Assembly: GCA_009746045.1 (NCBI GenBank)
Contig: RPFO01001081.1
Coordinates: 50,448 to 114,447, forward strand
Source: Mesostigma viride
Lineage: Eukaryota > Streptophyta > Mesostigmatophyceae > Mesostigmatales > Mesostigmataceae
Direction: 5' to 3'
DNA length: 64,000 nt
Part shown: positions 1,468 to 54,785 of the stretch, piece by piece
How positions within the stretch are numbered: the first letter of the stretch is position 1
Layout: the number at the start of each line of letters is the position of its first letter
Made by a program: the position numbers and the translations under genes
Notes under the pieces: model-generated
What the model was told of the DNA's origin: nothing
Seen by the model: the letters and a program-made list of their open reading frames with translations, nothing else
Databases searched by the model: none

Positions 1468-2886
1468 TTATTTAAATAAAATTATACTATTAATATTTTT
1501 GAATCTCCGTTTCCGCCCCGCTGGCTGCATGCCAGAAATGGTTGGCGACCTGCAGGCCCCTGGTTCCCTACCCACAATGCGAGCAAACCGCTTGCGCGCC
1601 TGAATCATTACGTATTCGACCACAATAATGAACAGGTAGGGCGAGAGCACGCAGCCCTGCCACACACCCTTCTGTAAAGGGCATGGTGGCGTGGTCCCGT
1701 AGGAAGTGCGCACCGAGGTGGTGGACCCTTCATATACAGGTTGCGGATTACAGCAATAAGGGGGAGGGGGATCCCGAGCAGTCTGAGAGAGGATGTCCCA
1801 CAGCGCAGGCCAGAAAACCGAATCGAATTAAGGCTTTTATGAAGTCGATCCACCAGCACAAGGTGCAGAGGGGACTCACCATGCAGGCTGATGGCGGTGC
1901 AGTTCTTCCACACTGATTAGGCGGCGAGTAGCGAAGAGCGCCTGTACTGTGTTGCGGCCTGCACGGAAGCCGTGCTGAGTCTCGCTGAGGTGGCCGTTCT
2001 GCAGGGCAGTGCGCAGGCAGTTCAGGATGAGCCGCATGAGAACTAGCTTGAGGGGGGCACTTTGGATGCACACCCCTCTGTAGTAGTTGCCGGGGTCGGC
2101 GGGCGACCCCTTGTTCTTGCACAGCATCGTGCGAAAACTGTGTTGCCAGGCCGCTGGGGGCGGTTGCGGCGACAGCAGAATGCGATTGCAGATATCCCGG
2201 AAGAGCTGCATGGCACCAGTGTCCTCAAACTTGGCGGCGGGTTTCACGACCGCGGCCGGAATCTCGTCGGAGCCTGTGGCTGCATCGTAACGCAGGCGCT
2301 GGACCGCCTCCGTGACCTCGTGGGAGGTGAAAGGCCGGAGGCATGTCTGACGGGTCCCCGAGCGGGCCGGCCAGTAGGGCCGGGGACTAGGTAGTCCGCG
2401 CCTCTGACCCGGGCGGGGCCGGGGGCCCGGCTGGGCCGCCTGCCAGGGCAGGCGGCCTGGCGGGCAGCGGCTCAGGCTGGGAGCAAGGGCGGGGGCGGCG
2501 CAGCTGCCCAGGACGTCTGCAGTGGCGGCCCAGGTGCGGAGCCACTTGGTCAGGGCCCCGGGTACGTCGTGGCGGTGGGGTCGGCCGAGGCCGTCTGGGT
2601 GCCCGAGGCGCTTGTACCAGAACCAGGCTCCCTTGCTGTCATTCTTCTGCAGGCAGGAGAGAAGGTCCTCGGCCATCAACTGAGCGTCGGCCTTTTCGGC
2701 TTGCTCGTAGGCGACCCGCAGAGCCGCTTCAATGCAGGCCAGGCTTGGCGATCGGGTACCTGTTGCGGCGAAGCAGCTGCCTGGCGGCGACCACTGTCGG
2801 CGCTTAATTGGCGGTGGACAGCGAGCTGTCAGCGCGGGGAAAAGGAGGGGAGGGTGCAGGCGGCCAGGCGGTACTTGGCATCCCAT
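1468..2886 (-). pseudogene. Non-LTR retrotransposon (LINE) reverse transcriptase, degenerate fragment
   Basis: The - strand encodes the stretch leading into a LINE reverse transcriptase and the first part of the RT domain. Read 2,886 to 1,468 it gives the pre-RT block (LLSCLQKNDSKGAWFWYK), a TGSDEIPAAVVK-like block, the KNKGSPADPGNYYRGVCI block (RT motif 1/2), the QHGFRAGRNTVQALF motif typical of LINE RTs, then LHLVLVD, a GIPLPLIAVIRNLY block and GVWQGCVLSPYLF. The reading frame changes several times after the QHGFRAG block, near 1,890 and 1,700, and the segment carrying the catalytic YxDD box was not found. It is therefore a dead, truncated copy. The family assignment rests on motif order as known for plant and algal L1/jockey-like LINEs. 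I cannot say whether it belongs to the same LINE family as the ORF1 copies to its right. Confidence 0.82.
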
Positions 2887-2959
2887 ATTTATGTCCCTGA
2901 TCGAGGATTTATGCTCATGTGCGCGCGGGAAGAAGGGTCGTTCGAGAGACGTGTATTAA

Positions 2960-3239
2960 TAAATAAAAAGTTGTCTAATTGATGTCATGATTGTCACATC
3001 GATGTTCTTTGAGGATTTATGCGACACGCATGCTGCATTGTCACAGCATGACTAAATCCATAAAGCCACGAGCGGACATGGCTGACGGCGGAGCTCAGAA
3101 CTTTTGCGTCTGAGCCCCGAATGCAGTCAGATCACTTGCAACCGATGCGTCTTTTCTAGGCGCATCTGCTACTATCATCGGTTACAGCTGCAACGCAGTA
3201 TTGTGACCAGCCTGGCAGCAGCTATTACGCAAAGCATAT
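2960..3239 (+). other. LINE 5' leader (untranslated)
   Basis: Roughly from 3,065, the sequence matches, in inverted orientation, the stretch at about 18,690-18,600 in front of the second LINE ORF1 copy. Both share the block around GACATGGCTGACGGCGGAG. It is therefore probably the 5' untranslated leader of this LINE family. Nothing else is recognisable upstream of it. Confidence 0.5.
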
Positions 3240-4351
3240 ATGACGAGCAAACGCTCATCTACGCAACGCACCCTGGCGGATGCGTTAAGCAATGAAAATA
3301 GGTCTGCAGCTCTGGCTGCAGCTTCGCCCTCAGGTCCGGAAGGCAGCGGTGACACTAGTCGCGCACTGGTGATCGCCCGGCAGCCCACCGGGCTTGCCTC
3401 GCCGTCTGCATCGCCTGAGCCTAAGCCGGCAGTCGCCCTGCCGAGCCGCATGGGGACGAGATCGCCTTTGACATCCACGCACCTGGCTACTGGACTCGCC
3501 GCCCCGGCAGGAGCCTTCATGGAAGACGTGTTTTTCGGCACGCACGCCTCGCTTGTAGCCCTGTGCTCGCACCTCATTTCCCACAACCGCGGCCGCTGGC
3601 CAGGTGGCCAGCCTGCCGACCCCCGGCCGCCGAGGATCTCCCAAGAGTTCTCTGAATAAATCGCCGGCCCCAAGCTCCAACGCTTCGCCCTCTGCTCCCT
3701 CCTCGGGCGCTTCGACGCCGAGATCTGGGCTTCCCCAATCCCCACCTTCCCCACCGAAGCCATCATCCGCACCCTCCTTAATTAAGGAAGCTTTCGAGCA
3801 GCACGTGACCCCCCTTGCCACAGATGTGGCGGCAATGGGCGGCATGCTGGCTGCTGAGCTCCCTCACATTTCCACCACCGTCACCTCCCGCCTCCACCCT
3901 CCTCGGCGCCTCCACCTCCACTGCCCGACCTCCACCTCCACCACCGCCCTCAAGGCCCAGCTTCTCGACATCGACCAGCGCCTAAAGGACACCACCATTA
4001 TTAGCCATCGAGTGCATGCAGAACACCGCCGGCATCACCGCCCAGGCGGTGAGGGACATCGCCACCAAGCCAGCCCCCGCTAGCTGGCCCAGGCGACGAC
4101 GCCCCTCCCACCCAGACCTGGGCGGACCTGCTCAAGCACCACGCCACCTCCACCACCTCCACCATCGCGGCACAGCTTAAGCAACAAGCCCCGTCTGACC
4201 TCCGCGAGGAGGCCGACCGCACCCTGCGTAGCCACCATGTCATCGTCAAGCACTTCGACCAGCCGGCAGGTGAGACCTCCACGAGCCTTCTCACGGCATT
4301 TCAGTAAGCGCGACATTTTTGCCCCCATGCTACTCACTCTGGTGAGCTGCG
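3240..4351 (+). pseudogene. LINE ORF1 protein, 5' part (interrupted by transposon E5)
   Basis: The protein starts MTSKRSSTQRTLADAL and is rich in Ser/Pro/Ala. The same start (MTSKRLSTQRSLADEL) begins the inverted copy at 18,541. Further on, both share a block around AEQHVTPLA-type residues, a leucine/threonine-rich coiled-coil-like region (QLLDIDQRLKDT), and a VKHFDQPAGETSTS block that resembles the RRM-like part of L1-type ORF1 proteins, which bind LINE RNA. Frame changes near 3,600-3,660 and 4,010-4,090 show this copy is decayed. Coding sequence stops at 4,351 exactly where E5 begins and resumes at 14,464 after the duplicated CTGCG. The intact order can be read by comparison with the inverted copy around 17,480-17,530. 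Confidence 0.7.
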
Positions 4352-4391
4352 AGGGGATTCATAGGTGTTTGCTCAATTTCACAAGTCTTCA
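4352..4391 (+). repeat. E5 left terminal inverted repeat
   Basis: Starts AGGGGATTCATAGGTG and pairs with 14,419-14,458 on the opposite strand. About five mismatches are visible over the first 35 positions. The outermost ten bases, AGGGGATTCA, are identical. Confidence 0.85.
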
Positions 4392-4432
4392 AATGAGTAA
4401 AAAAAAAATCTTTCAGATCTGAGGGTACCTAA

Positions 4433-4812
4433 AGCTGGACTGTTGCAGGCAGCCTGTAGACCATGAAAATAGACCACCCACGAAAATTGGGCTCATTCTG
4501 AGCTCAAATGGTGACATGTGACAGCATATATGTGCAGTTTTTCGTCATTTTCCCCCTTTACTTACATGAAACAAATATGAATAGTGGACAAATGAACTCA
4601 TTTCAGGCTGGATTCTTGCAGGCAGCATGTATACCATGAAAATAGACCACCCACAAAAATTGGGCTCATTCTGAGCTCAAATGGTGACATGTGACAGCAT
4701 ACATGTGCAGTTTTTCGTCATTTTCTCGGTTAACTTACATGAAACAAATATGAATAGTGAACAAATGAACGAATATCAAGTTGGATTCTTGCAGGCAGCA
4801 TTTAGAAAATGC
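4433..4812 (+). repeat. E5 left subterminal repeats (173-bp units)
   Basis: Two full tandem units of 173 bp (starting about 4,433 and 4,606) and the start of a third (about 4,779). Each begins with a GGCTGGATTCTTGCAGG-like block and contains GGGCTCATTCTGAGCTCAAA, which holds an internal GAGCTC palindrome. The same units occur inverted at 14,128-14,370, so they extend the transposon's inverted repeats. Such subterminal arrays commonly act as transposase binding sites; that role is inferred here. Confidence 0.85.
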
Positions 4813-6225
4813 ACATTGCCAGCTTTTACGTCATATCCCATTGAAAAAAAATAGATGAGCCATGAGCCATGAAACCTGTTCACCCAAATATGGTTTTATC
4901 CCATTTGATATATGTTCTACCAATTGTAAGGACATGTAATAAACCTATGAACCAAGGTCATAAGACACGGAATGTGTTGATCACAAGGCTGCTAGCCGCA
5001 AAGCATGCACCGAGAAGGTAGGGCAGCCATGAAAAATTAAAAGCCACATGCGGCAAGGCTAGTCATCAGAGTCTGAATCAGGAATGATGGGAGGCCGGCG
5101 CTTGTGGCGCGGGGTGGCCTTGGCTTGCTTCATTGCCGTGGACCGCTGGGCGACCTGCTTGCGAATGCACTCAGTAATGTCCGCCTTCCCTCGCGCAATG
5201 CTCGCAGGTGGAAGATTTGGCATGCAACTGCACACCGGGGCATGCGCAAAGCGCAGCCTGCACCTCATCAAATCCCACTATTTCATCGTCGCCATCGGAG
5301 TATAGCAGATGGGCCATGTCGTGCTCCTTACTAAAGGCCGTCACATGGCCATGATACCGCTTCTCCCCCGAGTTGGGGCCCGAAAATATCTTGCATACCA
5401 GGGTCCCCACCAACCATTCCGGCTCTGGCACGTCCATGACACGCGATTTGAAAAGTCCCACCGCCGTCTTCTCCGCCATCGCCGGGGTTCCGTACCCATC
5501 CCACTGAATCCAGTCGAGCGAGAGCCCAACAACAGCATCCTTCGTGTGCTGCGTCAATGTGCCACTGCTTGTCAAGCCCACCCGGCGCACCTTGCCCCCC
5601 CCGCACGCCACGAAGACAAGACGATTGTGCTTGCCTTCACTGAAAATGTGTGGGTACCTGTCCTTGTGGCGGCGGGCAGGGGGAAAATATGGGCCGAGCT
5701 CGGGCTGAAGGGCGAAAACCGCGTTGTGTACGAGTGCGAGCCGTAGCACTCAAGTTCAACCACGGCGTCTGGCGATAAGTCGCCGGTGATGTTGCGGGCC
5801 ACCGCGTACAGCAAAGGAGTGAAAGGCATTAGGGGGCTGCACAGAAGATCGCAGCCGTCCTTTAGCCCCGGATGTTGACACATCACCGGCTTCCCCACCT
5901 CGATGCCCTCCCATGCTGCAGCGGATGCTTGCTTTAGCGCTACCGCTGCATCCTCTGCGCGTCGCACAGCAGCGGGCCGCCCCGCGTGGACAACGGGGTC
6001 AACCAGCGGCACGAAGCAACGAGCACCCTCCAATGCTAGACGCGTTTCCGCATCCAGGTCAGTGGTGGCACTCGGGCCTGCTCCGCTCTGATTGGGTCGC
6101 CGCAGCGCCTGGATTTCCGCTCTAGTTGGCCACTTGGGGGGCTGCCATTCAGCAGGCACGGTGGCCACACCAGTTGGAACAAGAGGCCAGAAGGCCTCCC
6201 ACTTGTCCATGCCCTCCTTCTTTAA

Positions 6226-7925
6226 CCCCTAAATGGTCTGGCTGCCGATTTTCCGCCTAAAACTGAGTTACAGCCGACACGTCGGCCCCTTCTCGGGGGA
6301 CCAAATGCCGCGAAAACTATTGAGAATTAGGAAAAGTTTAGCTGAGAAGATCGAAAGTTTATAATTTTCCTCACAGCATGGTACTAGGGTTTGCATACTT
6401 CTGACAAAGTTATAGAGGTGTTCTGGCCGGTCAAAGTACAAGGGGTCAGGGTACTTTTTCACGTAGAACGTGCATTCCGGAAAACGACGACCTGGCCATG
6501 GCGGCTTGCGCACACGCATGGCATTTACGTTTTCGTTCGAATTTTCTGACCAAACTCAGTAATTTGATTTTATACGTCCTAAAGATGATACAGGCCAATT
6601 TTTGGTTCGCGGGAATGCCATTTGATAGGTGTCGGCAGCGTTCTTGCTGGAAAAAACTGCGATCAGGCCGGACGATAGAAACGTTGACAGCAATAACTTT
6701 CCGGCGTATTTTAAAGGATAAATCGGTTTCTTTGTACTTTTTATGATGATTTGTAGTCGTAAACGTGCAAGGGTGGCCAGAAATCGTCGAATCTAGCGAC
6801 CATGCTGCACAACTTTGGTGTGCCGAAATGCGCCATTTTGCGGCCACCGCCTGGGCCAAGGTAATGCCAGCCATGCCAGGTAAAGCTGAGTTATCGTTTT
6901 CTTGTCGATGTTTGACGTTTATATATACGTTCTAGCTTGTGTAGCACATTCTTTCTTCATTATTCATGCTCTTTCTTGACCATGGCCTGGCCCCTTCCTA
7001 AAACACCACTCTTAGATGCTTCCCTCAGTCAGTTGACCTGCCATAGTGTGATGGTGATAAGTTTTAGAGGCTGTGTGGGTTTGAATACCTCCATATATGT
7101 TTGTTATACATTTCCCACACACATATTGCATGAGTGTGAGGCAGTTGGCTGGTCTCTGTGGCATCATCAAGCATGTACCCGGTGAGTAGAAGCTTCCCAT
7201 TGTCAGCATGTGCCACCAGGTGTGCTGGCCATCACCTGGCAAGCTATAGCAGCTTAGGCCTAGTTTATCCTTGCTAGGGCAAGCTGAAATAGGCTTAAAA
7301 TCACTAGTTTGTTGGTGGCTGCCTCCTAGAATGCATGCCTTGCGTAGGGTATCCGTACCACGTTACCTACGTGCATGGACAAGGTGGCACCTGCACATAG
7401 GTGCCATGTAAGGGCAGTGTGATGATGCAGTTATGTTTCCCCATCATTGTGGAAGGGAAATGTATTGTGTGGCATGGTTGGGGGACATTTTTAGTAGGTA
7501 TTAGTAGGTAGTATGCCCACCCCTACCCCTTTGGTTGCTTTTTACCAACCGTACCCCTATGGGCTGTACTGGGTGTAACTGCTGGTATACCCACCCAAAT
7601 GATGACCCCAATGGCTCAAACTGTTCAGCAACTAATTGTTTATCATCCCTGAAGTGGTAGGTGCCTAGCTCTTACAACATAATTCAAAATGCACATTCTA
7701 CCAAAAATGAAAACGCTCGTCTTGACCCCCCTGACTTTGACGGCAGTTATACATGGCCTACCCTGCATATATGTAAGGTTGTGATATACCAACCCGAAGG
7801 GCAACTCATGGACATGCTTGGCCCCCAAGGACAGCCATTGGATATGGGTGGGTTGGATGGCATCTGGTTTGCAAAATTGTGAAGTTACAGCCGATGCATC
7901 GGCAGTATTTCTGCCCATTTAGGGG
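6226..7925. mobile_element. E1: 1,700-bp TTAA-flanked (piggyBac-like) element inside the transposase gene
   Basis: Ends are CCCCTAAATGG at 6,226 and its reverse complement CCATTTAGGGG ending 7,925. Both sides are flanked by TTAA (6,222-6,225 and 7,926-7,929). TTAA duplication with termini beginning CCC is the hallmark of piggyBac-type transposons. A GTTACAGCCGA...TCGGC hairpin lies near each end. Removing the element with one TTAA joins codons TAT TTA | AAG AAG GAG GGC ATG in frame. No transposase ORF is evident, so it is probably non-autonomous. Its middle (about 6,617-7,387) is closely similar to part of element E4 (about 21,822-22,588). Confidence 0.88.
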
Positions 7926-9575
7926 TTAAATACTGCGCGTATCCTCCAGCCATCAAGCCCTTGATCTTTCTCTGGATTCCTGGCATCTTGCCCTCCAGGA
8001 AGTCCAAATCCAAGCCTGCTAGCGAGGGCACCGTCCCAAGTGCGCGCTCCACCTTCTCCCCGTCCACCACCAATACCCCATACAACTCCTTGCCGTCGTG
8101 TTCCCTAGTCCACAGCGGGTGCTCGCCGTCGGCGCCGTCCGGCCTCCACTCGAGCAAGTCATGGAATTTATACCACAAGTAGACTTCCCCGTCCGCAGCA
8201 CGCCGCAACATCAGATGGTGAACCTTGCAGGACTTTGTGTTTTTTTCTGCCTCCCCCGTCAGCGGGTTTTCCACCCAATCCGTTGACATCGCCCAGTTCG
8301 CGAGCTCCGGCTCTTTCAAGAGCATGATCGAGCCACGCAGCGATGTTGTAGTAGGCGGCGCCCATGGTCCAGCAGACCGTGCCTGCGGGCGTGGTGCGAC
8401 CCAGGTCCGACGTGTCCGAACGCCGAAACGCGGCAACGACCGCTTCCCCATACTCCTCCACTGTGTGCCACACCGCACCCTTCAGTGCGTTGGCCCCCAG
8501 CTTGAAGTACCCCCAAACTTGTCCGAATTTCTGATCGATGTCGAGATGGGTGTGCCCCCTTGGCAGGCGATGAATCTCGACACGCGCGAACAAGCCCGAC
8601 GCCACCAGCCACCACGCCCACAGCAGCACCGTGTCGTTGCGATTTTCAGATCCCCCGTCGAGTTGCAGGTGGAGGGTATCAGGCATCGGCAGCCCCTTCC
8701 CCTCCCAAGGCTTGGCCTTGATGAGCTCACAGAGCACCCACATGAGCAGCGTGACGGTGATGCCCCCCGACTGATCTGCCACAGCCACCCAGGGGAGCAC
8801 CTGGAAGAAACAAGTTTTCCACCCGTGGGCTGCGACACAAAAGAGAGAGAAACGAAACAATGTGTTTATTCCGTTTTCCCAACCCTCGTGTTTCGCGCAC
8901 ATGTGCGGCACGTATGACTTGTTGCTGTCGATCTTATCGCACGCAAGGGATATGATCTGCCAATCCACACCCTCACGGCGGCGCTTCCAAAACTCGCGCC
9001 GCGCAACTCGCACGGCAGCCAGGTGGCGATTCCGCTCCAGGGTGATGCGCTCCAGCTGCTCCCGATTGGTTCCCGCTGCCGCACGGAGGGTACGGTACAG
9101 CACACAGTGCCCACAAATCCCCACATTGCGCCGGTTTTTCTGCATCTCTATTTTCAAGCCGTCGCTGTATTTGCCCTCGCAGACGTCGTTCCACAGAATG
9201 GTGAAGGCCGTGTACTTGTACATCATTTTCGACTCCGTTGGGTTGCCCCATACCGCGATGCAATCCATACAATACTGCTGCTCCCACAGGTTTTTCAAGT
9301 TCTCTTTCTCTAGCAGCAATACATTGTCGCGTGTGGGATCGCGGCAGCCATTCGTCTGCACGTATGCCGCAATCCAGTCCACAGCCCATTCTTTACGCTG
9401 TTGCACAACACTCGGCTCGCGTTTGCCAGCGCCTGCATTGCACAAGGCACACATCACATGGACAAGTTTACCAACAGAGGCATGAAGAATATAAGTTATC
9501 CATGCAGGGTCATCCTCAACATGCACACGCGAGAGCAACATCAGGTATTAAACATAGTAATGAAACAACAATAAA

Positions 9576-9746
9576 TGTGCCTGGCAAGCCAAAAAAAAAT
9601 TTTTCCCCTCGCGGGGGGCGCTGGAAAACGGCAAAGGCAAAGCGGAGCCCGCCGAAAGGGGGGGGTTTTGCGGGCTCCGCTTTGCCTTTGCCGTTTTCCA
9701 GCGCCCCCCGCGAGGGGAAAATTTTTTTTTTGGCTTGCCAGGCACA
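9576..9746. repeat. 171-bp foldback (77-bp arms) in intron 1 of the DUF7869-type gene
   Basis: Left arm 9,576-9,652 and right arm 9,670-9,746 are near-perfect reverse complements (ends TGTGCCTGGCAAGCC), separated by 17 nt. It lies wholly within the predicted intron 9,843-9,433. No target-site duplication is obvious. It could be a tiny foldback or MITE-like insert, or a hairpin that survives because it is spliced out. Confidence 0.9.
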
Positions 9747-10435
9747 GTAGCATTTCTCATATACAGATTTCTCAAAACAGGGCAGCAATAAGGTGAATTG
9801 CATCCAAAAGGAGGAAGGGCAGAACGATAGCATGTCTTCTTACCGTGAGAGATTCCTGGTATTTCACACCCCACGGCGTCGAGGGTGTCCGCCTCCCAGA
9901 CTTCGTGATCAAGCTTGCAGGCCGCCTTGGCGACGGCCATGTATGTCCTCCACGTGGAGTGGGCGATGCCAAACATGCGTCGTATCGCATGGTGGCACCC
10001 CTCCACGTGGTGCCGTCGCCCATGCACCAGCACCTCCGCCACAACCGGCACCGAGCATTCGTATTTCCCATGGTGTCGGCCAAACTCTGGCAAGGTGACT
10101 GTCACATGCTCCAGGCCGGCAGCGACAAAGAGCCCCACCACCAGCTGCCGGCGTTCATTGCAGGACAGCCCCCAATATTTGCTACGTGCCGCCTCCCATA
10201 TTACAAAGGATGACAGGGGGCTCTGGGGATCTTGTATGCATCTATGTTTACAACACCGCCCGCGCAGCTCTGCCGCGATCACATGGGCATTACAGGCGTA
10301 TTTCAGTACTGTTGTTGCTGATGATTTGAATCCTGCTGTGCGGCACCCACCACCTACATCATCATCGTCATCACTGCCGATATCCAGATGGTCGACCTGA
10401 TCGTCATGATCAACGTCTACTACGACGTTGTAGGC

Positions 10436-10486
10436 CTCGTACAAGGGGAATCGACGCTGCCTGGGCATCAATTCCCCTTGTACGAG
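10436..10486. repeat. 16-bp perfect inverted repeat within exon 1 of the DUF7869-type gene
   Basis: CTCGTACAAGGGGAAT at 10,436-10,451 faces its exact reverse complement at 10,471-10,486 across a 19-nt loop. It falls near the presumed start of the coding sequence. Confidence 0.85.
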
Positions 10487-10552
10487 ACAGGCCCCTGGTG
10501 GTCGGGACGTAAGAGCAGCAACACCAAAACGGCAACGAACATTCTCCAGCAA

Positions 10553-11426
10553 GCTGCCTCATCCCCGGCTAAAACAGGGGGCCTGGGGCAAGGGTCTTCT
10601 TCAATTTCCAACGACATCCAATTCCAGCGCCCCCCACCATATTCGTCACGGCGCCTCCAATAGTCTGAACCTTCACGACCGCCCATGGCAGCTCTCGCAA
10701 TTATGTTGGCACGCCTCTCCCAATTATGCCTCTCCTGCCTCGTTTGTGGCTCGATCTTCCGCTGACTCAGCGCGGCGCATGAGAGTTCCATTCAGAATTC
10801 ATTCACCGACCCCCAACACTGACCGTACAGCCAGAACAAACGAAAAGGTCTTGCATTCTCAATGAAAATGGGCTGTAACGGCATTCCATTGAGAATTCCA
10901 TTCAGAACTCATTCACCGACCCCCAACACTGACCGTACAGCCTGACTGCCCGTCCAGTCTGAACATACGAAAAGGACTTGAATTTCCTTGCTAACACCAG
11001 CAGGTCGGTCTCGGCAATTCATCTTGCATTCACTGGAATTCACTCATCGAAGCCCCGAGACTGCCCGTCCAGTCTGAACATACGAAAAGGACGAATTTCC
11101 TTGCTAACAGGTCGGTCTCGGCAATTCATCTTGCATTCACTGGAATTCATTCATCGAAGACCCGAGACTGCCCGTCCAGTCTGAACTTCATACTACCGTT
11201 GTACGAAATTCAGACTGCACGAACCTCGAGGATTGTCAATGAATGCCCATGATTTTTGAATGAACAAAGCACACTGACCGCCGTGTTTGCGCGCGCGCGG
11301 GTGGAGGTGCGTGCACTAGTCTGCCAAGAAAACACTGCAGGGCATGCGCGCACGAACACAACGAGAACGTGCCAGCCTATGACGTCGTCGACGATGAAGT
11401 TCGTCGTCCGCTAAATTGTAGGGGAT
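10553..11426. promoter_or_regulatory. Divergent intergenic region with tandem repeats between the two E5 genes
   Basis: This interval separates the heads of the - strand DUF7869-type gene and the + strand PHD/poly-Q gene, so it should hold both promoters. It contains direct repeats: CATTCAGAA(T/C)TCATTCACCGACCCCC twice (about 10,791 and 10,902), and a block of about 95-115 bp built on TTTCCTTGCTAACA ... CGTCCAGTCTGAAC twice (about 10,980 and 11,095). An alternative short - strand ORF at 10,791-10,468 (starting MELSCAALSQRKIEPQ) could be an extra 5' exon of the DUF7869-type gene in another frame. I cannot identify a TATA box with confidence. Confidence 0.5.
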
Positions 11427-13930
11427 ATGGCGGAGTATCTGAGTGAAACAGAGAGGCTGCGGGCAGAACGACTGTGTTATGGACAAACTGCGGGTGTTTG
11501 CCTCTTAGGCCATGCCGATGGGGCAGACAACAACTGTCGGGGCCGAAATGGTGAAAGCTGCAACCTATTTGCTCACGCGATCTGCGTCAAGGCAATTGAC
11601 GGGAATAAAAATGGGGAGGAGTGGTGGTGCCCAGGATGCCGTGACCCCGGTGGCGTGAAAGTTGCCAATCTCCAAGCTTCGGGTTCGAACGGTCATCATG
11701 AGCTCGGCACTCCCCCCCCGGCCCTGGGGTCCGCTGCTAACAAGTTCATTCCGAAAACCGACGACGACCGTAAGATGTTGCTGGAGGATTCCGGATGCAA
11801 GGAGGTGGAGGATTGGGAGAAAGGACATCCAAAGGCTCCCGGCAGGAAGCTAGTGTTTCCGGGTGCCGACGCCCATGCCGACGCGGAATCAGATGCCAGC
11901 AAGGAGGTGCCGTCAACTGATGCCAGCAAGGAGGCGCCGTCAACTTATGCCAGCAAGGGCGTGCTTTCAACTGATGCCAGCAAGGGCGTGCCATCGAGTG
12001 GTGACAAGTCGAGCGCGGGTGTCATGGTCGATGATGACTTACCGGACTCCCTGCCCCCACCCCCCGACTCCCCGCCTCCCCCCACCTGCGAAGCATCACA
12101 TGCAGACGACGCCCAGCCCAGGGGCGGCCACCCAGCAGCTGCCATGCCCAGCGCTAGCAGTGCAGCACGGCGTGCCAGCTTTGATGCTGCAAATCTCAAG
12201 TCGGGGGACCAGCTTTCCTTGGAAGCTCCAGCGTTTCTGTCGTGGCCTCCCTCCCCTGATGGTGTCCCCTCCCCTGGCGATGTCCGTGTAGGACAATTGA
12301 TTCGCGTCGCCATCTCTCATAAAGAGCTCGGCAAACCCCTCTTCCCCAAGGTAATTCTTGGTTTTCATGTGTATTCCGGAGGGGCGGGGATCTTCCTGGC
12401 AAACACGCCATACGCAAGAAAGGACCTTATAGAGGGGGCTGTCAAGAGCGGGGTGGTCAAGCTGACGCCTGATCCCCCAGCATATTACGTGACCTGGGCT
12501 CAACAATCCCATGCCCTCCGGCCCGTCTTGATACAGGATGGCGTTGTCGCCAGGGTTGGCAACCTGACCGTCCTGCGCGACCGGCTAGATGCTGTGTGCG
12601 AATACCTGCCAAGCGCAGGTCTGGCGGCGCTTCGGGCCATCTCTGGTGGCTTGATCTACACTGGCAAAGGCGCTGAGGCAGTCAAGTTTGACTTGGTAAA
12701 GGACATGCCAAAACGCAAGACACCTGTCACTTCCTATCAACCTCGCGCTAACAAGAGTGTGCCAGAGCCGCAGCTGCAGGTTGCCCCCACACGCTCTTCC
12801 AAGCGTGTGAAGGCGGACAGCCAGCCCAAGGCAGAGCCCAAGTGCGGTGATCAAGCAGTCAAGCCGAGCAGCGAAGCCAGGGCGAGTGGCAGGAGCAGCA
12901 AGAGGCCTCCCTCGGTATATGTACGCGAGGACGAGTCGGATGAAGAACCTGACATGCAGCTGGCACCCCGCGATGGGCAAGTAGCGAAGTTGCGCCGCAC
13001 TCTCGCGGTCGAGCAGCACAAGCAGCACAACGCGGAGCTTCAGCAGCTGCAACGCCAGATGCTGGAAAGTCAGAAGCAGTGGCAACTGCTGCTCCACCAG
13101 CAGCAGCAGCAGCCGCAGCAGCAGCAGCAGCCGCCGCCGCCACCGCCGCCGCCACAGCAGCAGCAGCAGCAGCAGTCGCAGCAGCAGCAGCCACCGCCGC
13201 AGCAGCATCTGCTGCAGCCGCCGCCGCAGCAGCAGCAGCAACTGCTGCAGCAGCTGCTGCAGCTATTGCAGCAGGAGCCGCCGCAGCAGCAGCAGCAGCC
13301 CGTGCTGCAGCCGCCGCCGCCGCCGCAGCAGCAGCAGCAGCCGCAGCAACAGCCGCAACAGCTGGTGCTGCTGCAGCTGCAGCAGCTGCTGCAGCAACAG
13401 CAACACTACCGCCTCCCACTCCCTGCCGCTACAATGACTCCACGAGTAATTGACGGGGACGCCGAACTAGCGCCCATGGCTCAAGTGCAGCAAATGCTGG
13501 CTCAGATGCAACTTCCCATGCAGGTATGTCCTTTCCTATTTTGGAAACATAATATTCCTTTGTGAATAGATTCATGTTGGAGCAGTATATAGGATATGTT
13601 TGTTTGGTTTGTTGGAGGATTTTTCCTCCGTACCGTACCCTAAGGCATGCTAACCTTGATGTGCTTGGTGTTGTACAGGTGGGCGGACGCCGGCTCCCAT
13701 CCGTTGATCCCTTATCTGGCACGGTCTCTGTGGCGGTTGCTGCACTCAATTCAATTGCGACACTGGCCGCGTCTGGGAACACGACGCCTATGCCACGATG
13801 GCGTCCGGGGACCACGTGGGTGCCGTCATCCTTGTCATCTTTCCCCAACTATGGTGCCGGCCGCCCGTCGCAGCAGTGGCCAAGCTTCTCCAATGACTGG
13901 ACCATTAGCAATGACTGGTTTACTAGTTAA
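11427..13930 (+). CDS. PHD-like zinc-finger, poly-Q protein of transposon E5
   Basis: Two exons: 11,427-13,523 and 13,679-13,930, joined in phase 0 (donor CAG|GTATGT, acceptor TTGTACAG|GTGGGC), giving about 782 residues. An N-terminal Cys/His segment (about residues 22-72: CLLGH, NNCRGRNGESC, LFAHAICVKAI, EEWWCPGCR) resembles the second half of a PHD finger, a chromatin-reading fold. Next come four SKE/GVPSTDA-type repeats (about 155-190), a Pro-rich segment, and a central globular region (about 265-430) without a known domain. A basic stretch with KRVK and RSSKRP follows, then a glutamine/proline/leucine-rich tract from CAG/CCG triplets (about 530-665). The C-terminus is Ser/Trp-rich. Its place inside E5, divergent from the putative transposase, suggests an accessory protein like those of CACTA or Mutator elements; that is inference. 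No frame break is seen. Confidence 0.75.
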
Positions 13931-14127
13931 GCTTTGACTAAATGAAACTGAAGTATTATTAAGTGAGACAGCTGTGATGTGCTTACATAAGCTGATGTCT
14001 TAGTACATACTTATTGTATATTCATGATGGACTGTTAAGAAAGAGGTGCATGTCAGAACTGTCAGCCCAGAGCTGTGCCATGCCAATGACACCCGTAGAT
14101 CCTAGCTAGTCCTTGGATGATGCCTTA
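13931..14127. other. 3' flank of the PHD/poly-Q gene
   Basis: AT-rich sequence between the stop codon and the right subterminal repeats of E5; presumably the 3' untranslated region. No clear polyadenylation signal was recognised. Confidence 0.4.
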
Positions 14128-14458
14128 CCATTTGAGCTCAGAATGAGCCCAATTTTTGTAGGTGGTCCAGTTTCATGGTCTAAATGTTGCTTGCAAGAAT
14201 CCAGCTTGATATGAGTTCATTTGATCATGATTCCTATTTGTTTTTTGAAGAATACATGTGAAAATGGCGAAAAGCTGCATATTCATACTAGCACATGTCA
14301 CCATTTGAGCTCAGAATGAGCCCAATTTGTTTAGGTGGTCTAATTTCATGGTCCTCATGGTGAATGACACCTACTTCATTGACAAATACAAGCATTCAAT
14401 AACATTTGGAAAAATTGAGTAAAATTTGTGAAATTGAGCGACCACTTGTGAATCCCCT
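14128..14458 (-). repeat. E5 right subterminal repeats and terminal inverted repeat
   Basis: Two copies of the 173-bp subterminal unit, inverted relative to the left end. The block CCATTTGAGCTCAGAATGAG lies at 14,128 and 14,301. The terminal repeat ends TGAATCCCCT at 14,458 and is followed by the duplicated CTGCG. Confidence 0.85.
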
Positions 14459-14463
14459 CTGCG

Positions 14464-15488: not shown

Positions 15489-17378
15489 GGGGACTCGCAC
15501 GTCCAAAAGCCTGAAAAACTGACTTTAATGAATATAGTTCTGGACAATGCACTCGGGAACCATCTAGTGATGATTGAGTACCATAAATATGATGTTTGGA
15601 CATTCATGCCACCCCCAACCACGCACCGGTGGCGAGCTAAAAATAGAAAAAGACGCTATTTATGAGATATTTTGCCCAAGACAAACCACTTATCCAAATG
15701 ACCTGCCCATACATTTCTGCAAAGTTCCCCTACTTTTTTAAAAGCTGGGCTATTTACATGGCCAAAATGGTCACATTTGTTTGAGTTATTAATTTTCCCG
15801 CAAAATGGGTACTTTTTTGAGCCAAAAAAAATAAATCAAATCATTAACACATCAGATTGGGTCATCCATACATTTTATATTCCACTGAGTGGGGGGAAAC
15901 ACAACCCCAAAGTTTGAGCTCATTCTGACAAGCGTAGCTCAAGTTATTGATTTTCCTATGATGCCACCTGGGTAGACGCTAAAAGAGAATTGAGCTAGTG
16001 CTGAGCCAAAATGACATCTGTTTTGCTACCCTAGACACCCAAAAACATGCCCACTTTGATCACGGAGTGTGAGGAGGATGTCCGGAGCGTCATACGCCCC
16101 ACCCCTCCATCGGCACAGCCAGCCTTGTGAGTCTACCCTTAACAACAAGGCTGGTAGGACGACACGCCTGAGCAGCATATGTAATGCCTATCTCAGGCTA
16201 ATAATGTGTGCTTTTGTGCCAACAACCAAGTTGTTCCACCCAACAACACATTAAAAACCCTCTTCCAAAATGCCCAACAAGCCGGACACGTGGAGGACCA
16301 CACACGCAGTATATAAAGAGAAAATAAGCTGAATTTTTATCCAGCCAACCTGTGGCTAGCTGCTCTGGTTAGCATGACAAAGGCTATCATTTACAAAGTG
16401 GGAAAGGTGAAGAGACCATTGGAACAGCCTACCTGACGCATGTGCCACCAAAGCATTGTGTCCCGCAAAATGCATACTGCCTCCTTTCTAACAAGCACGA
16501 GCCGCTTTCTTTAGGAGACAGGTGCCAGCTCGTCAGTGTCTGGGGAAAATGATGCCGCTGCTTAGGAAGACCGCGTGAATTTCCTCGAACACAACTGTCT
16601 ATAAAGCAAAAGAAATTTCAGAGAAGCATGGAAATAAAAGCATTAAACCTTCCCGACAGGTTGCGGGCCACGCGCTGCAGAAAGCCAGCCACGACACAGA
16701 CGAACTTGCTAAAAGACACCCAGGAATCCAGCGATGCAGCGCCAGGACCCGCAACTTCCTGGCTGCATCTGGCCGGAAAGAAGGCAAAAAGCTTACGCTC
16801 AACGAGCTAAGAAAGCATGAAAACGCTAGCTTAAGACGTTTAATACAAGAACGTACCATAACGGGCATTTATTCGTGCCCAGGCGCACAAGTAAGTCCAC
16901 CCTTTCATGGAGAGGTTGGGCACGCATCGCGCAGGCTTAATGTTATCTTACCGCAAAATGACGGGAAAGGTAAAGATAGCAGCGGGAATTTTTACGGCTT
17001 TAGAAACATCATTAAACTAGCTTTCCTTACGACCATCAAAACTGGCAACAATCGACAATCACACCGGCAGGCATCCATTATACTTTATTCATCCCGACAG
17101 AAATTCAGGCCGGACCCCCCTGCCGATGGCAAAGAAAAAAAGCCCGCGACATTATAGATCGCAACCATCCCGCCATAAATTAGAATCAGTAACTAATTTT
17201 CTCCAAGAATCGAGCATTTTTTCTGCTTTCCGCGTGCCAGATTTGTCACGTTTCGTCTAAAAGCAGTCGCCATGGCCACTTCCGCAAGGGGTGCGCGCAC
17301 CGTGCACCCACTTTTCACGGTACGGAGGGTACCGCGGAATTTTTTTGGCGCGGAAAATATTCGCCGCGCCGAGTCCAC
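15489..17378. mobile_element. E2: 1,890-bp TTAA-flanked element inside the inverted LINE ORF1
   Basis: Flanked by TTAA at 15,485-15,488 and 17,379-17,382. Ends are GGGGACTCG (15,489) and, on the other strand from 17,378, GTGGACTCG. The uninterrupted sequence GGCGTTCCTTAAATGCCG exists at 14,553-14,570 in the + strand LINE copy, which proves the insertion point. Its last ~130 bp (CGCCATGGCCACTTCCGCAA, then GC-rich GGCGCG palindromes) match the right end of E3, so E2 and E3 are one family. No transposase ORF is visible. Confidence 0.85.
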
Positions 17379-17382
17379 TTAA

Positions 17383-18541
17383 GGAACGCCTGACAGCTTG
17401 TCCGCCATGTACTTAAAGGTGAGGAGCACGGGTGCCGGGCCAGCCTTCCCCCGCGCGCGGGGGAGGCAGACAGCCGACATGTCCAGCTCACCAGTGAGTA
17501 GCATCGGGGCAAAAATGTCGCGCTTAAATGTCTCAAGAAGGCTCGTGGAGGTCTCACCTGCCGGCTGGTCGAAGTGCTTGACGATAACAATGTGGCTGCG
17601 CTTGGCGATGTCGGCTTCCTCGCGAAGGTCGAGGGCTTGTAATTGCTTGAGTTGTGCCATGATGGTGGAGGTGGTGGAGGTGGTGTGCTGCTTAAGCAAG
17701 TCCGCCCAGGTGGAGGAAGCATCGTCGGCCGGGCCAGCAGGCGCCGGCTGGGCGGCGATGTCCTTCACCGCCTGGGCGGTGAGGCCGGCGTTGTCATGCA
17801 AGCTCTCAAGGGCGTTGCCGGCGGTGGCTTGAAGGCGTTGGTCGAGGTCGAGGAGCTGGGCTTGGATGTCGGCAGTGGAGGCGGAAATGGCAGTGGAGGT
17901 GGAGGTGGCGGCGGTGGAAAGGTGAGGAAGTTCAGCAGTCAGCGTGCCACCGATTGCTGCTAGGTCGGCAGCAAGGGGGGTCACGTGCTGCTGGAAGGCT
18001 TCCGTGAGGATGGAGCGGAGGGTGGGGGCGGAGATGGATGGAGCCCAGATCTCGCCGTCAGAGCGCTGGAGAAGGGAGTTGAGGATGGTGTGCTGGAGTT
18101 GGGGGCGGGGGCACCCGAACAGCGTGCTGATGTTGTGCCAGCGGCGGCCGTCCGGGAGGAGGAGGCGATTGTTGTCGTGGAGATGGAGGCACAGGTCTTA
18201 AAGCGAGGCGTAGTCCCCGTAGAGAATGCAGTGCATAGCATCGGACGGAGACATGTTGGTCCAGTCGTGATCATCGTCCTGGAAAGGTTGGAGCCGAAAG
18301 CGCGGTTCCGAGGGGCGTGAAGACCCTCCTGTTTGTCGGCTAGCTGAGCGGGTGCGTTTAGGGTCAGGCGATGCCGATGGCGAGGCATTGAGCCCGGGAG
18401 GTTGCTGGGCGACCACCAGTGCACGACTATAGTGTCACCGCTGCCTGCCGGAGCTGGCAAAGCTGCAGCCGCAGCTGCCGCATTTTCATGGGCGAGTTCA
18501 TCCGCCAAACTGCGTTGCGTCGAGAGGCGTTTGCTCGTCAT
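17383..18541 (-). pseudogene. Inverted LINE ORF1 protein, N-terminal and central part
   Basis: Starts MTSKRLSTQRSLADEL at 18,541. After a Ser/Pro/Thr-rich region the frame changes near 17,985-17,980. The central part runs MTPLAADLAAIGGTL, a coiled-coil-like QAQLLDLDQRLQ, VIVKHFDQPAGETSTS, FKRDIFAPMLLTGEL and LLTFKYMADKL. It stops at the TTAA where E2 is inserted. This copy is better preserved than the + strand copy and serves as the empty-site reference for E5. Confidence 0.7.
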
Positions 18542-21436: not shown

Positions 21437-23145
21437 CTCGCGTTATTACATAACGCAATTTTTTGCGTTGTGAGGTTATAACGCAAAAAATTGCGTTGTT
21501 AACATGGAGTTCAAACAACTATTTCCCAATAGTTTAGAGGCCAAACAACTGCAGTCAGGCTTAGTTTATAACCCTAGGATCTCATAAAAAAATCCCCGTA
21601 CCCAAGTACCCAACGGTTGCCACGTGGCATCATGCAATGCCAGCTGTAAATCAGGACTTTTTAGGGAAGACGAAGGTGATGGCCGAACGAAATCGCGCGT
21701 ACCCACTGCAGTCCTGCTGTAGTCTAGCGACATGGCGCAGCTGTTTGACCCCAGGAAACGCGATCGTAACCTAATAGGAAGACATGTTAGCGTCCCAGCA
21801 ACATACTGGGGTGAGAAATGGGCCATTTGATAGGTGTCGGCAGCGTTCTTGCTGGAATAAACTGCGATCAGGCCGGACGATAGAAACGTTGACAGCAATA
21901 CCTTTCCGGCGTATTTTAAAGGATATATCGGTTTCTTTTTACTTTTTATGATACATAGTAGTCGTAAACGTGCAAGGGTGGCCAGAAATCGCCGAATCCA
22001 GCGACCATGCTGCACAGCTTTGGTGTGCCGAAATGCGCCATTTTGCGGCCACCGGCTGGGCCAAGGTAACGCCATCCATGCCTGGTAAAGCTTAAGCATC
22101 GTTTTCCTATCGATGTTTGACATTTATATATACGTTCTAGCTTGTGTAGCACATTCTTTTTGCACTATTCATGCTTTTCTTGACCCTGGCCTGGCCCCTT
22201 TCTAAAACACCATTCTTAGATGCTTCCCTCAGTCAGTTGACCTGCCACAGGGTGATGGTGATAAGTTTTAGAGGCTGTATGGGTTTGAATACCTCCATAT
22301 ATGTTTGTTATACATTTCCCATACACATATTGCATGAGTGTGAGGCAGTTGGCTGGTCTCTGTGGCATCATCAAGCACGTAACTGGTGAGTAAAAGCTTC
22401 CCATTGACAGCATGTGCCACCAGGTGTGCTGGCCATCACCTGGCAAGCTATAGCAGCTTAGGCCTAGTTTATCCTTGCTAGGGCAGGCTGAAATAGGCTC
22501 AACACCACTAGTTTGTTGGTGGCTGCCTCCTAGAATGCATGCCTTGCGTAGGGTGTCCGTACCACGTTACCTACGTGCATGGACAAGGTGGCCGCAGTGC
22601 CCGCTCTTCTCGTTAAGCGTGGCATGTGGCCAGCTTGTATTATTGGCTGCAGGTGGTTGCCCTGTCTTATTTTGACATATCTGGGCTTAGTTTGTGCATC
22701 TCCATGGGTTTATGCCCCCCAAGGGGCCCACGGTGCGTTTTGTGTGCACCCACTTGTCTACCCAGTGTTATAGTGTTATAATTTCATGGGTGTGGGGAAA
22801 ATAGGAGGGCTGCTTATTTCAAGCCCATATGCAGCCACGAGGGTCTACATATATTGCTTTTACTCCAAAAAATTCAGTGCCTGCAATACTTGACCCATGT
22901 GGCATACCGGCCCCTTGTAGTGTGAGGGGGTCATAGTTTACGAGACCCATGTGTCTTCAACTTTGAATTTCACATAGCCAGGCTGGGAATTACATGCCAA
23001 GACCATATACTACATTTTTTTATATATCTCAGAGAATTCATAACTGGCCTCAGATAGCCCATATCATGCTTGCTTCATTAGATGTGTTTAATTGAAATAA
23101 AGTGTTATAACGCAAAAAATTGCGTTATAAATGTGCTAACGCGAG
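21437..23145. mobile_element. E4: 1,709-bp TTAA-flanked element adjoining E3
   Basis: Flanked by TTAA (21,433-21,436, shared with E3, and 23,146-23,149). The inverted repeats begin CTCGCGTTA, and both ends then contain ATAACGCAATTTTTTGCGTT, itself nearly palindromic. The interior at about 21,822-22,588 is closely similar to E1's 6,617-7,387, although E1 and E4 have different termini. An open - strand stretch at 22,123-21,566 has no recognisable domain. Confidence 0.83.
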
Positions 23146-37504: not shown

Positions 37505-37612
37505 ATTAGAGTTTTGTTTAGCTTCTATTCTCGTCTACACATAATTCACACGAAGTACGCTTGCAAATACTTTATTACTATTTTGTTTGATATACTACAC
37601 TAATATTATAAT

Positions 37613-37776
37613 TGTTGTGTGTGTGTTGTTCACGTGTGCGTGTGTGTGTTGTGTGTGTTGTGTGTGTTGTGCGTGTGCGTGTGCGTGTGCGTGTGCGTGT
37701 GCGTGTGCGTGTGCGTGTGCGTGTGCGTGTGTGTGTGTATATAATTTTTTGTTGTGTGTGTGTGTTGTGTGTTGTA
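37613..37776 (+). repeat. GT-rich microsatellite leading into the satellite
   Basis: (GTGTGT)n with GTTGTGTGTGTT and a run of about ten GTGTGC/GTGCGT units. It borders the 40-bp satellite. Confidence 0.9.
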
Positions 37777-40700
37777 CGTGCAAGGTGTATGTACATGTGT
37801 GTGCAGCCGGCCCTTGCGTGCGCGGTGTGTGTACGTTTCTGTGCAGCCGCCCCTTGCGTGCGCGGTGTATGTACGTGTGTGTGCATGCCGACCCTTGCGT
37901 GCATGGTGTGTGTACGTGTGTGTGCAGCCGCCCCTTGCGTGCGCGGTGTATGTACATGTGTTTGCACTCGCCCCTTGCGTGCGCGGTGTATGTACGTGTG
38001 TGTGCAGCCGCCCCTTGCGTCCGCGGTGGATGTACGTGTGTGCAGCCGCCCCTTGCGTGCATGGTGTATGTACGTGTGTGTGCAGCCGCCCCTTGCGTGC
38101 GCGGTGTATGTACATGTGTGTGCATCCTTGTCCTTGCGTGCATGGTGTATGTACATGTGAGTGCCGTCGCCCCAACCGTGCATTGTGTATGTACGTGTGT
38201 GTGCAGCCGCCCCTTGCGTGCATGGTGTATGTACATGTGTTTGCACTCTCCCCTTGCGTGCGCGGTGTATGTACGTGTGTGTGCAGCCGCCCCTTGCGTG
38301 CGCGGTGGATGTACGTGTGTGCGCACTCGCCCCTTGCGTGCGCGGTGTATGTACGTGTGTGCGCACTCGCCCCTTGCGTGCGCGGTGTATGTACGTGTGT
38401 GTGCAGCCGCCCCTTGCGTGCGCGGTGTATGTACATGTGTGTGCATCCTTGTCCTTGCGTGCATGGTGTATGTACATGTGAGTGCCGTCGCCCCAACCGT
38501 GCATTGTGTATGTACGTGTGTGTGCAGCCGCCCCTTGCGTGCATGGTGTGTGTACATGTGTGTGCATCCTTGTCCTTCCGTGCATGGTGTATGTACATGT
38601 GTGTGCAGCCGCCCCTTGCGTGCGCGGTGTATGTACGTGTGTGTGCAGCCGCCCCTTGCGTGCATGGTGTGTGTACATGTGTGTGCATCCTTGTCCTTGC
38701 GTGCATGGTGTGTGTACATGTGTGTGCAGCCGCCCCTTGCGTGCGCGGTGGATGTACATGTGCAGGCAGTTGCCCCTTGCGTGCGCGGTGTATGTACATG
38801 TGTTTGCACTCGCCCCTTGCGTGCGCGGTGTATGTACATGTGTGTGCAGCCGCCCCTTGCGTGCATGGTGTATGTACATGTGTGTGCAGTCGCCCCGTGC
38901 GTGCGCAGTGTATGTACGTGTGTGTGCATGCCGGCCCTTGCGTGCATGGTGTGTGTACGTGTGTGTGCAGGCGCCCCTTGCATGCGCAGTGTATGTACGT
39001 GTGAGTGCAGCCGGCCCTTCCGTGCGCGGTGGATGTACATGTGTGGGCAGTCGCCCCGTGCGTGCGCAGTGTATGTACGTGTGTGTGCATGCCGGCCCTT
39101 GCGTGCATGGTGTGTGTACGTGTGTGTGCAGGCGCCCCTTGCATGCGCAGTGTATGTACGTGTGAGTGCAGCCGGCCCTTCCGTGCGCGGTGGATGTACA
39201 TGTGTGGGCAGTTGCCCCTTGTGTGCGCGGTGTATGTACATGTGTTTGCACTCGCCCCTTGCGTGCGCGGTGGATGTACATGTGTGTGAAGCTGCCCCTT
39301 GCGTGCATGGTTTATGTACATGTGTGTGCAGTCGCCCCGTGCGTGCGCAGTGGATGTACGTGTGTGTGCAGCCGCCCCTTGCGTGCGCGGTGGATGTACA
39401 TGTGCGGGCAGTTGCCCCTTGCGTGCGCGGTGTATGTACATGTGAGTGCAGCCGCCCCTTGCGTGCGCGGTGTATGTACGTGTGTGTGCAGCCGCCCCGT
39501 GGTTGCGCGGTGGATGTACATGTGAGTCCAGCCGTCCCTTCCGTGCATGGTGTGTGTACGTGTGTGTGCAGTTGCCCCTTGCGTGCGCAGTGTATGTACG
39601 TGTGTGTGCATGCCGGCCCTTGCGTGCATGGTGTATGTACGTGTGTGTGCAGCCGGCCCTTGCGTGCATGGTGTGTGTAGATGTGTGTTCATCCTTGTCC
39701 TTGCGTGCATGGTGTATGTACATGTGGGTGCAGCCGCCCCTTGCGTGCGCAGTGTATGTACGTGTGAGTGCAGCCGCCCTTCCGTGCGCGGTGGATGTAC
39801 ATGTGTGGGCAGTTGCCCCTTGTGTGCGCGGTGTATGTACATGTGTTTGCACTCGCCCCTTGCGTGCGCGGTGGATGTACATGTGTGTGAAGCTGCCCCT
39901 TGCGTGCATGGTTTATGTACATGTGTGTGCAGTCGCCCCGTGCGTGCGCAGTGGATGTACGTGTGTGTGCAGTTGCCCCTTGCGTGCGCAGTGTATGTAC
40001 GTGTGTGTGCATGCCGGCCCTTGCGTGCATGGTGTATGTACGTGTGTGTGCAGCCGGCCCTTGCGTGCATGGTGTGTGTAGATGTGTGTTCATCCTTGTC
40101 CTTGCGTGCATGGTGTATGTACATGTGGGTGCAGCCGCCCCTTGCGTGCGCGGTGGATGTACATGTGCGGGCAGTTGCCCCTTGCGTGCGCGGTGTATGT
40201 ACGTGTGTGTGCAGCCGGCCCTTGCGTGCGCGGTGTGTGTACATGTGTGTGCAGTTGCCCCTTGCGTGCGCGGTGTAGGTACGTGTCTGTGCAGCCGCCC
40301 CAAGCGTGCATGGTGTGTGTACGTGTGTGCAGCCGCCCCTTGCGTGCGCGGTGTATGCCAGTGACAGTGTGTGCATGCCGGCCCTTGCGTGCATGGTGTG
40401 TGTAAGTGTGTGTGCAGCAGCCCCTTGCGTGCGCGGTGTAGGTACGTATGTGTGCAGCCGCCCCTTGCGTGCGCGGTGTATGTACGTGTTAATGCAGCCG
40501 GCCCTTGCGTGCGCAGTGTATGTCCAGGTGTGGGCAGTTGCCCCTTGCGTGCGCGGTGTATGTACGTGTGTGTGCAGCCGCCCCTTGCGTGCATGGTGGG
40601 TGTACATGTGAGTGCAGCCGCCCCTTGCGTGCGCGGTGTGTGTACGTGTGTGTGCAGCCCCCCTTGCGTGCGCGGTGTAGGTACGTGTGTGTGCAGCCGC

Positions 40701-54000: not shown

Positions 54001-54674
54001 GTGTGCAGCCGCCCCTTGCGTGCATGGTGTATGTACATGTGAGTGCAGTCGCTCCTTGCGTGCATGGTGTGTGTACGTGTGTGTGCAGCCGCCCCTTGCG
54101 TGCGCGGTGTATGTACGTGTGTGTGCAGTCGCTCCTTGCGTGCATGGTGTGTGTACGTGTGTGTGCAGTTGCCCCTTGCGTGCATGGTGTGTGTACGTGT
54201 GTGTGCAGCCGCCCCTTGCATGCGCGGTGTATTTACACGTGTGTGCAGCCGCCCCTTGCGTGCATGGTGTATGTACATGTGAGTGCAGCCGGCCCCTTGC
54301 GTGCATGGTGTATGTACATGTGTGTGCAGCCGCCCCTTGCGTGCATGGTGTATGTACATGTGAGTGCAGCCGGCCCCTTGCGTGCATGGTGTATGTACGT
54401 GTGTGTGCAACCGCCCCTTGCGTGCATGGTGTGTGTACATGTGAGTGCAGTCGCTCCTTGCGTGCGCGGTGGATGTACGTGTGTGTGCACTTGCCCCTTG
54501 CGTGCGCGGTGGATGTACGTGTGTGTGCATGCCGGCCCTTTCGTGCATGGTGTGTGTACGTGTGTGTGCATCCGGCCCTTGCGTGCATGGTGTGTGTACA
54601 TGTGAGTGCAGTCGCTCCTTGCGTGCTCGGTGTGTGTACGTGTGTGTGCAGCCGCCCCTTGCGTGCATGTACAT
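51031..54674 (+). repeat. 40-bp satellite array, right block (~90 monomers)
   Basis: Same 40-bp family. The stretch at about 51,745-53,550 repeats 47,000-49,020 with a constant offset of 4,760 bp in its middle. 240-bp higher-order units (six monomers) repeat in tandem at 51,293-51,772 and 53,803-54,282. A GTATTTACACGTG variant marks one monomer of each 240-bp unit. Confidence 0.96.
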
Positions 54675-54785
54675 GTTTGAAGAAATAAGCAATAGTGAAT
54701 GGAATAGTAAAAAGAAAATCATTCCAGCATATGTATGTACAAGTTTTTAGTAGTACACTATGACTATCGTCAAACATAACAATTT
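54675..54785. other. AT-rich spacer between satellite blocks of opposite strand bias
   Basis: About 110 bp of ordinary AT-rich sequence where the + strand changes from GT-rich to AC-rich. Confidence 0.6.

Follow-up and report, generated by a model that had tools for sequence, protein, structure and literature searches.

In the genome of the streptophyte alga Mesostigma viride (GCA_009746045.1), we investigated a window of 64,000 nucleotides (contig RPFO01001081.1, positions 50,448 to 114,447 of the forward strand; positions below are those of the window) that contains a DNA transposon carrying a gene for a DUF7869 protein. The element, as re-measured here, spans 4351-14459 (10,109 bp), with termini GAGGGGATTCA and a TGC duplication. 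It is very likely one copy of a multi-copy cut-and-paste family that uses the DUF7869 protein as its transposase. Support at the sequence level comes from the ends, the duplication and an empty site, from nearly identical copies found at separate places, and from others devoid of the DUF7869 gene. The best reading of the protein, from sequences and predicted structures, would be a DDD transposase of a group generating 3-bp duplications.

The original prediction described inverted termini of about 40 bp, mirrored 173-bp subterminal repeats and a precise empty site near 17,480 in a sister repeat, and all of these were recovered (Table 1). The terminal inverted repeats (TIRs) cover 39 nt with 85% complementarity; in the frame first proposed they pair at 32 of 39 positions, beyond the best of 200,000 random pairs (28). 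The joined flanks align across the inverted sister repeat and leave a clean empty site at 17480-17484, which has no power to discriminate a 3-bp from a 5-bp target-site duplication (TSD). The copies elsewhere in the genome do so: an exact 3-bp TSD is found in 20 of the 21 copies read at both ends, and an apparent 5-bp repeat in only 5, so the 5-bp duplication CTGCG first proposed was rejected and is read as C + TGC + G. The only copy with no exact 3-bp TSD (L026) has altered bases at its left tip. A G precedes AGGGG in 20 of the 21 copies and a C follows CCCCT in all of them, and these flanking bases are part of the element since they are nearly constant.

Genome-wide counts were taken over the 440-Mb assembly (2243 contigs). 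Allowing up to 3 mismatches, we found 292 matching ends (148 + 144), of which 100 places were listed, and none with the reversed control. The original prediction would have been refuted by termini found at this site only, but they are not unique to it. From the 21 copies read at both ends, 17 include the interior (the window, L011-L013, L015-L020, L022-L024 and L026-L029) and 4 were read as short flank pairs; L014, which is rearranged, and L021 and L025, with right ends not reached, were not scored for the duplication. As all 21 left flanks differ, these copies are separate insertions, and the duplicated 3-bp target sequences vary among them. In other copies the subterminal repeats are extended into long arrays. 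With shared TIRs and a TSD of fixed length, as in DDD/E cut-and-paste elements, the family is, judging from its sequences, a multi-copy cut-and-paste DNA transposon of M. viride.

Comparison of the window DUF7869 frame with protein collections returned a single near-identical match, a JGI predicted protein of M. viride (P0001, 759 residues). At least 754 of these residues are covered in 6 of the 17 interior copies and at most 182 in the other 11. Since these 11 lack most of the DUF7869 gene, the majority of the copies read are non-autonomous and some action in trans is likely in the family. Three copies (L027-L029) have a right-type end on the left side and a left-type end on the right side, and four end pairs (L035-L040, L042-L043) are of the right type at either side. 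Such arrangements suggest that one end type can pair with itself.

In the window, the DUF7869 gene is broken by a 1.7-kb insertion and two frame slips (near 5750 and near 8330, the latter inside the catalytic exon at about 8330-8364), and this copy thus has no intact transposase gene. The element, previously called complete, is indeed bounded at both ends, but the broken gene does not support completeness in the functional sense. The insertion is flanked by TTAA duplications (6222-6225 and 7926-7929), is exactly absent from L011, where the alignment jumps from element base 1874 to 3575, and is presumably a piggyBac- or Kolobok-like element, going by the TTAA. Its interior has a relative with 94% identity at 21822-22592. 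On the other hand, L011, L012, L014, L015 and L017 keep the second exon as one open frame, 715 residues long when counted from the splice site, and in L016 an 885-residue open frame includes the Tudor-like part (E 0.003). DUF7869 is tied to bounded ends in six read copies. The six copies with the uninterrupted frame (L011, L012 and L014-L017) differ from each other by only 0 to 2 positions over 1950 nt, which in sequence terms is the signature of a very recent spread or of gene conversion. The CCxxxC motif of the first exon is present in the family consensus, and the intron holds a near-perfect hairpin (9576-9746) with 77-bp arms 99% complementary.

The DUF7869 assignment proved right: PF25273 matches the window with E 6e-15 (55.7 bits against a cut-off of 26), the only Pfam family to pass its own threshold; Tudor and OSTMP1 match weakly, under theirs. 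When the window frame and the P0001 core served as plain homology queries, nothing beyond P0001 came back, so a third query was built around an animal core. It gave 570 of 724 candidates at E <= 1, and all of the 120 listed matches bear PF25273; they come from cnidarians, molluscs, lancelets, echinoderms, hemichordates, a sponge and metagenomes, and 7 of them additionally carry OTU, Ulp1 or MYND domains. When P0001 is aligned with 69 of these relatives, D210, D303, H338, T339, H340 and D344 (P0001 numbering) are invariant, the three aspartates being kept in 70 of 70 proteins. The second and third are separated by 40-41 residues in all of them, and the first and second by 77-182 (median 81; 92 in P0001). 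Two predicted models have the strand order of RNase H with the aspartates placed as in a DDD/E transposase. An RNase-H-like core with three conserved acidic residues, as is usual for DDD/E enzymes, is thereby supported by the predicted topology together with the alignment.

We were not able to find a match to P0001 among PDB sequences at E <= 1, nor any match between Pfam transposase models and P0001 or three relatives at E <= 10, and an NCBIfam scan of P0001, P0002 and gene B (the second gene of the element) was empty. Profile A1 matched only NIPBL chains in the PDB, at its C-terminal part (28.6 bits). With a coral DUF7869 model, Foldseek ranked a putative Tetraselmis virus 1 transposase (BFVD A0A2P0VP61) first in a viral library, as the nearest fold there (E 1.6e-4, probability 0.99); three scans of viral contigs revealed no relative. 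Two contigs filed under Bacteroidetes metagenome-assembled genomes bear DUF7869 genes (L001 5451-6290; L002 1927-4658). These genes have apparent introns and belong to the algal subtype (DGGxEN), and the contigs are probably eukaryotic contaminations; a repeat search on both found no element ends.

PF25273 was found in at least 150 places of the M. viride genome (150 scored of 275 candidates) and in none of 14 control genomes. The profile span of the window family is shared by 17 listed places, 7 of which were read. Many other listed places differ in open-frame length and score and, from these features, look like other families. One common score and span unites 59 listed places, with open frames mostly above 1000 codons, and two of them were read (L045/L046). 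One copy (C1945:352141-363350) is 11,210 bp long, with perfect 29-bp inverted ends starting GGGTGGTTTTACC and a 3-bp TSD, TCT; the other has 9.7 kb in common with it at 99.9% as well as its right end, but its left end was not located. That the termini differ while TSD length and protein family stay the same is the strongest single argument that DUF7869 does the cutting, although given by one copy only.

We suggest that the DDD triad of the RNase-H domain (D210, D303 and D344 of P0001) would cut at the GAGGGG ends, and that the cut ends would be inserted into the target at a stagger of 3 bp. The 173-bp subterminal repeats may be bound by the cysteine-bearing N-terminal region, by gene B, or by both, and the Tudor-like C-terminus, as a chromatin reader, may steer targeting to chromatin. 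Copies devoid of the DUF7869 gene would be mobilized in trans.

It could also be that gene B encodes the transposase, with DUF7869 being a passenger nuclease or a captured host gene, which we consider very improbable. All 11 copies holding at most 182 residues of P0001 still have gene B or some diverged part of it, with at least 48 aligned residues. However, it has no domain match above cut-off in three scanned copies and is rich in low-complexity sequence, and among copies it is far more diverged (54-99% by segment) than the near-invariant DUF7869 exon. It is undetected in L016, which keeps full DUF7869, intact ends and a clean 3-bp TSD, which makes a need for it in cis improbable, and a second bounded DUF7869 element exists. 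Gene B was originally described as a divergent PHD/poly-Q gene; the divergent poly-Q gene is there, with a GT..AG intron apparently at 13524-13678 (approximate limits), but the PHD match is insignificant (E 0.52). No more probable is an unrelated transposase, encoded elsewhere in the genome, that moves the element in trans with DUF7869 as cargo. The 11 of 17 copies lacking most of the DUF7869 gene would fit it, but intact, near-identical frames lie inside bounded copies at distinct sites, an element with other termini likewise carries DUF7869, and the predicted fold and triad match a transposase. In agreement with the original prediction, Pfam scans covering the window frames and a selection of those in six other copies revealed no other transposase, leaving DUF7869 as the only transposase-like product there and no different linked one. 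Eight further frames (L012, L015, L016, L022, L024 and L027) gave no transposase; their several short matches (Sushi, CX9C, UvrD_C and others), mostly below cut-offs, look like repeat-driven chance.

A different question, compatible with DUF7869 being the transposase, is whether the element belongs to a superfamily that has already been described and named differently (Academ, or some other group of Repbase), with DUF7869 being just the Pfam label of its transposase. This is a real possibility, somewhat short of probable. Academ elements have TSDs of 3-4 bp and are present in many of the animals that also have DUF7869 proteins, which abound in cnidarians, molluscs and lancelets. According to PMC10045372 and PMC12730594, the superfamilies in Repbase number 23-24, and DDD/E is found in 21 of 23. 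Against this, no Pfam transposase model matches P0001 or the three relatives, and neither a C..C nor a C/D..H lies between the second and third aspartates in any of the 70 proteins. Chances are about even that DUF7869 defines an undescribed eukaryotic DDD superfamily, with 3-bp TSDs, a GHTHxDxD third-aspartate motif at 40-41 spacing, and TnsB/IstA-like domain order, distributed across cnidarians, molluscs, lancelets, echinoderms, sponges, streptophyte algae and freshwater protists, with very recent activity in Mesostigma. The undescribed superfamily put forward by the original prediction is possible but unproven, the comparison having covered signatures and Pfam models of the superfamilies discussed below. 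A literature search found no paper on DUF7869 and none on a new superfamily with 5-bp TSDs, which says little about subscription journals or Repbase.

Table 1. Coordinates of the DUF7869 element, its genes and the sister repeat in the window.
Feature	Position	Strand	Evidence
Left target-site duplication TGC	4348-4350	no strand	exact 3 bp in 20 of 21 both-ended copies
Left terminal inverted repeat, starts GAGGGGATTCA	4351-4389	+	85% complementary to 14421-14459
173-bp subterminal repeat, two in tandem	4434-4779	+	91% identical; TRF period 173
Tudor-like C-terminal part, out of frame here	5171-5749	-	PTM_DIR17_Tudor E 4e-4, below curated cut-off
DUF7869 3' coding part, P0001 residues 544-759	5575-6225	-	tblastn 99.5%
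Nested non-autonomous element, ends CCCCTAAATGG, interrupting the DUF7869 gene	6226-7925	no strand	16-bp perfect inverted ends
DUF7869 catalytic exon, P0001 residue 45 onward	7926-9433	-	PF25273 E 6e-15; tblastn map
Intron GT...AG	9434-9841	-	P0001 exon junction
First coding exon, CCxxxC motif, start codon inferred	9842-10468	-	P0001 residues 1-45 at 9976-9842; open frame upstream
Gene B exon 1, zinc-finger-like N-terminus, poly-Q	11427-13523	+	open frame; PHD E 0.52
Gene B exon 2	13679-13930	+	in-frame continuation past inferred intron
Right subterminal repeats, mirror of left	14127-14362	-	236 nt, 82% complementary to 4450-4685
Right terminal inverted repeat, ends TGAATCCCCTC	14421-14459	-	inverted match to left end
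Right target-site duplication TGC	14460-14462	no strand	read against ends of other copies
Sister repeat holding the empty site	17376-17711	-	joined flanks align, 86% over 351 columns

The sister repeat was initially labeled a long interspersed nuclear element (LINE). Pfam gave no matches above cut-off on the scanned flanking frames, and this label is tentative. The repeat carries its own 1.9-kb insertion (15490-17376); by eye, the short ends of this insertion are of the GGGACTCG type and its duplication resembles TTAAG. Elsewhere in the window, about 17 kb (37545-54786) contain very long overlapping open frames on both strands, up to 1867 codons, that are made of short repeats such as THTYIHHARKGR; this region probably consists of non-coding tandem repeats.

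With these elements, a domain of unknown function becomes a transposase that can be put to the test, its ends and target length being defined. PF25273 is borne by 120 of the 120 listed relatives, from many animals and metagenomes, and in this single algal genome it matches 150 places or more. A new superfamily, if it is one, would add to a list of about two dozen and give those who annotate eukaryotic genomes a class of mobile genes that now carry no label. The close likeness of the Mesostigma copies suggests that this culturable alga may hold an active element.

Among known superfamilies, CACTA/EnSpm elements also have subterminal repeats and a two-gene layout, as in the present element. Their ends are CACTA, whereas here they are GAGGGG, and we found no Pfam match to CACTA/EnSpm transposases. 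The TSDs are alike, being of 2-3 bp in EnSpm and Plavaka families according to PMC12730594, and of 3 bp here. The same source gives the CMC group (CACTA/EnSpm, Mirage, Chapaev, Transib) a C(2)C and an H(3-4)H between the second D and the last acidic residue, but the C..C half is found in 0 of 70 DUF7869 proteins. The C/DxxH placed in that interval for hAT, MuDR, P, Kolobok and Dada (PMC10045372) is equally absent from all 70. IS3EU, with 6-bp TSDs and TAYGG ends as given for fungal families (PMC12730594), differs from the 3 bp and GAGGGG found here. In Tc1/mariner (ITm) the TSD is the 2-bp TA (PMC10045372), generally so in mariner-type elements such as Mos1/mariner and the SETMAR (Metnase) transposase domain, whereas our sites are varied and of 3 bp, and P0001 has no sequence match in the PDB at E <= 1. 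Zator/ISAzo13 and PIF/Harbinger share the 3-bp TSD (PMC10045372, PMC12730594), and the comparison with Zator and PIF/Harbinger was by Pfam models only, with no match to P0001 at E <= 10.

Academ, set against its general description only, has a Cys8 motif in its core and an XPG or helicase partner. Neither was seen here, and DUF7869 cores hold 0 to 6 cysteines (median 2). The top Foldseek matches of the coral DUF7869 model were TnsB (Tn7/CAST) and IstA (IS21), over 506-625 columns. Both are bacterial, Tn7 duplicates 5 bp, and the whole-chain root-mean-square deviation is near 21 A, so that at most the domain order of the predicted model would be alike. Since the signatures of the tested superfamilies failed or gave no Pfam match, we classify the element as a DDD/E transposon of a group unplaced among the superfamilies tested.

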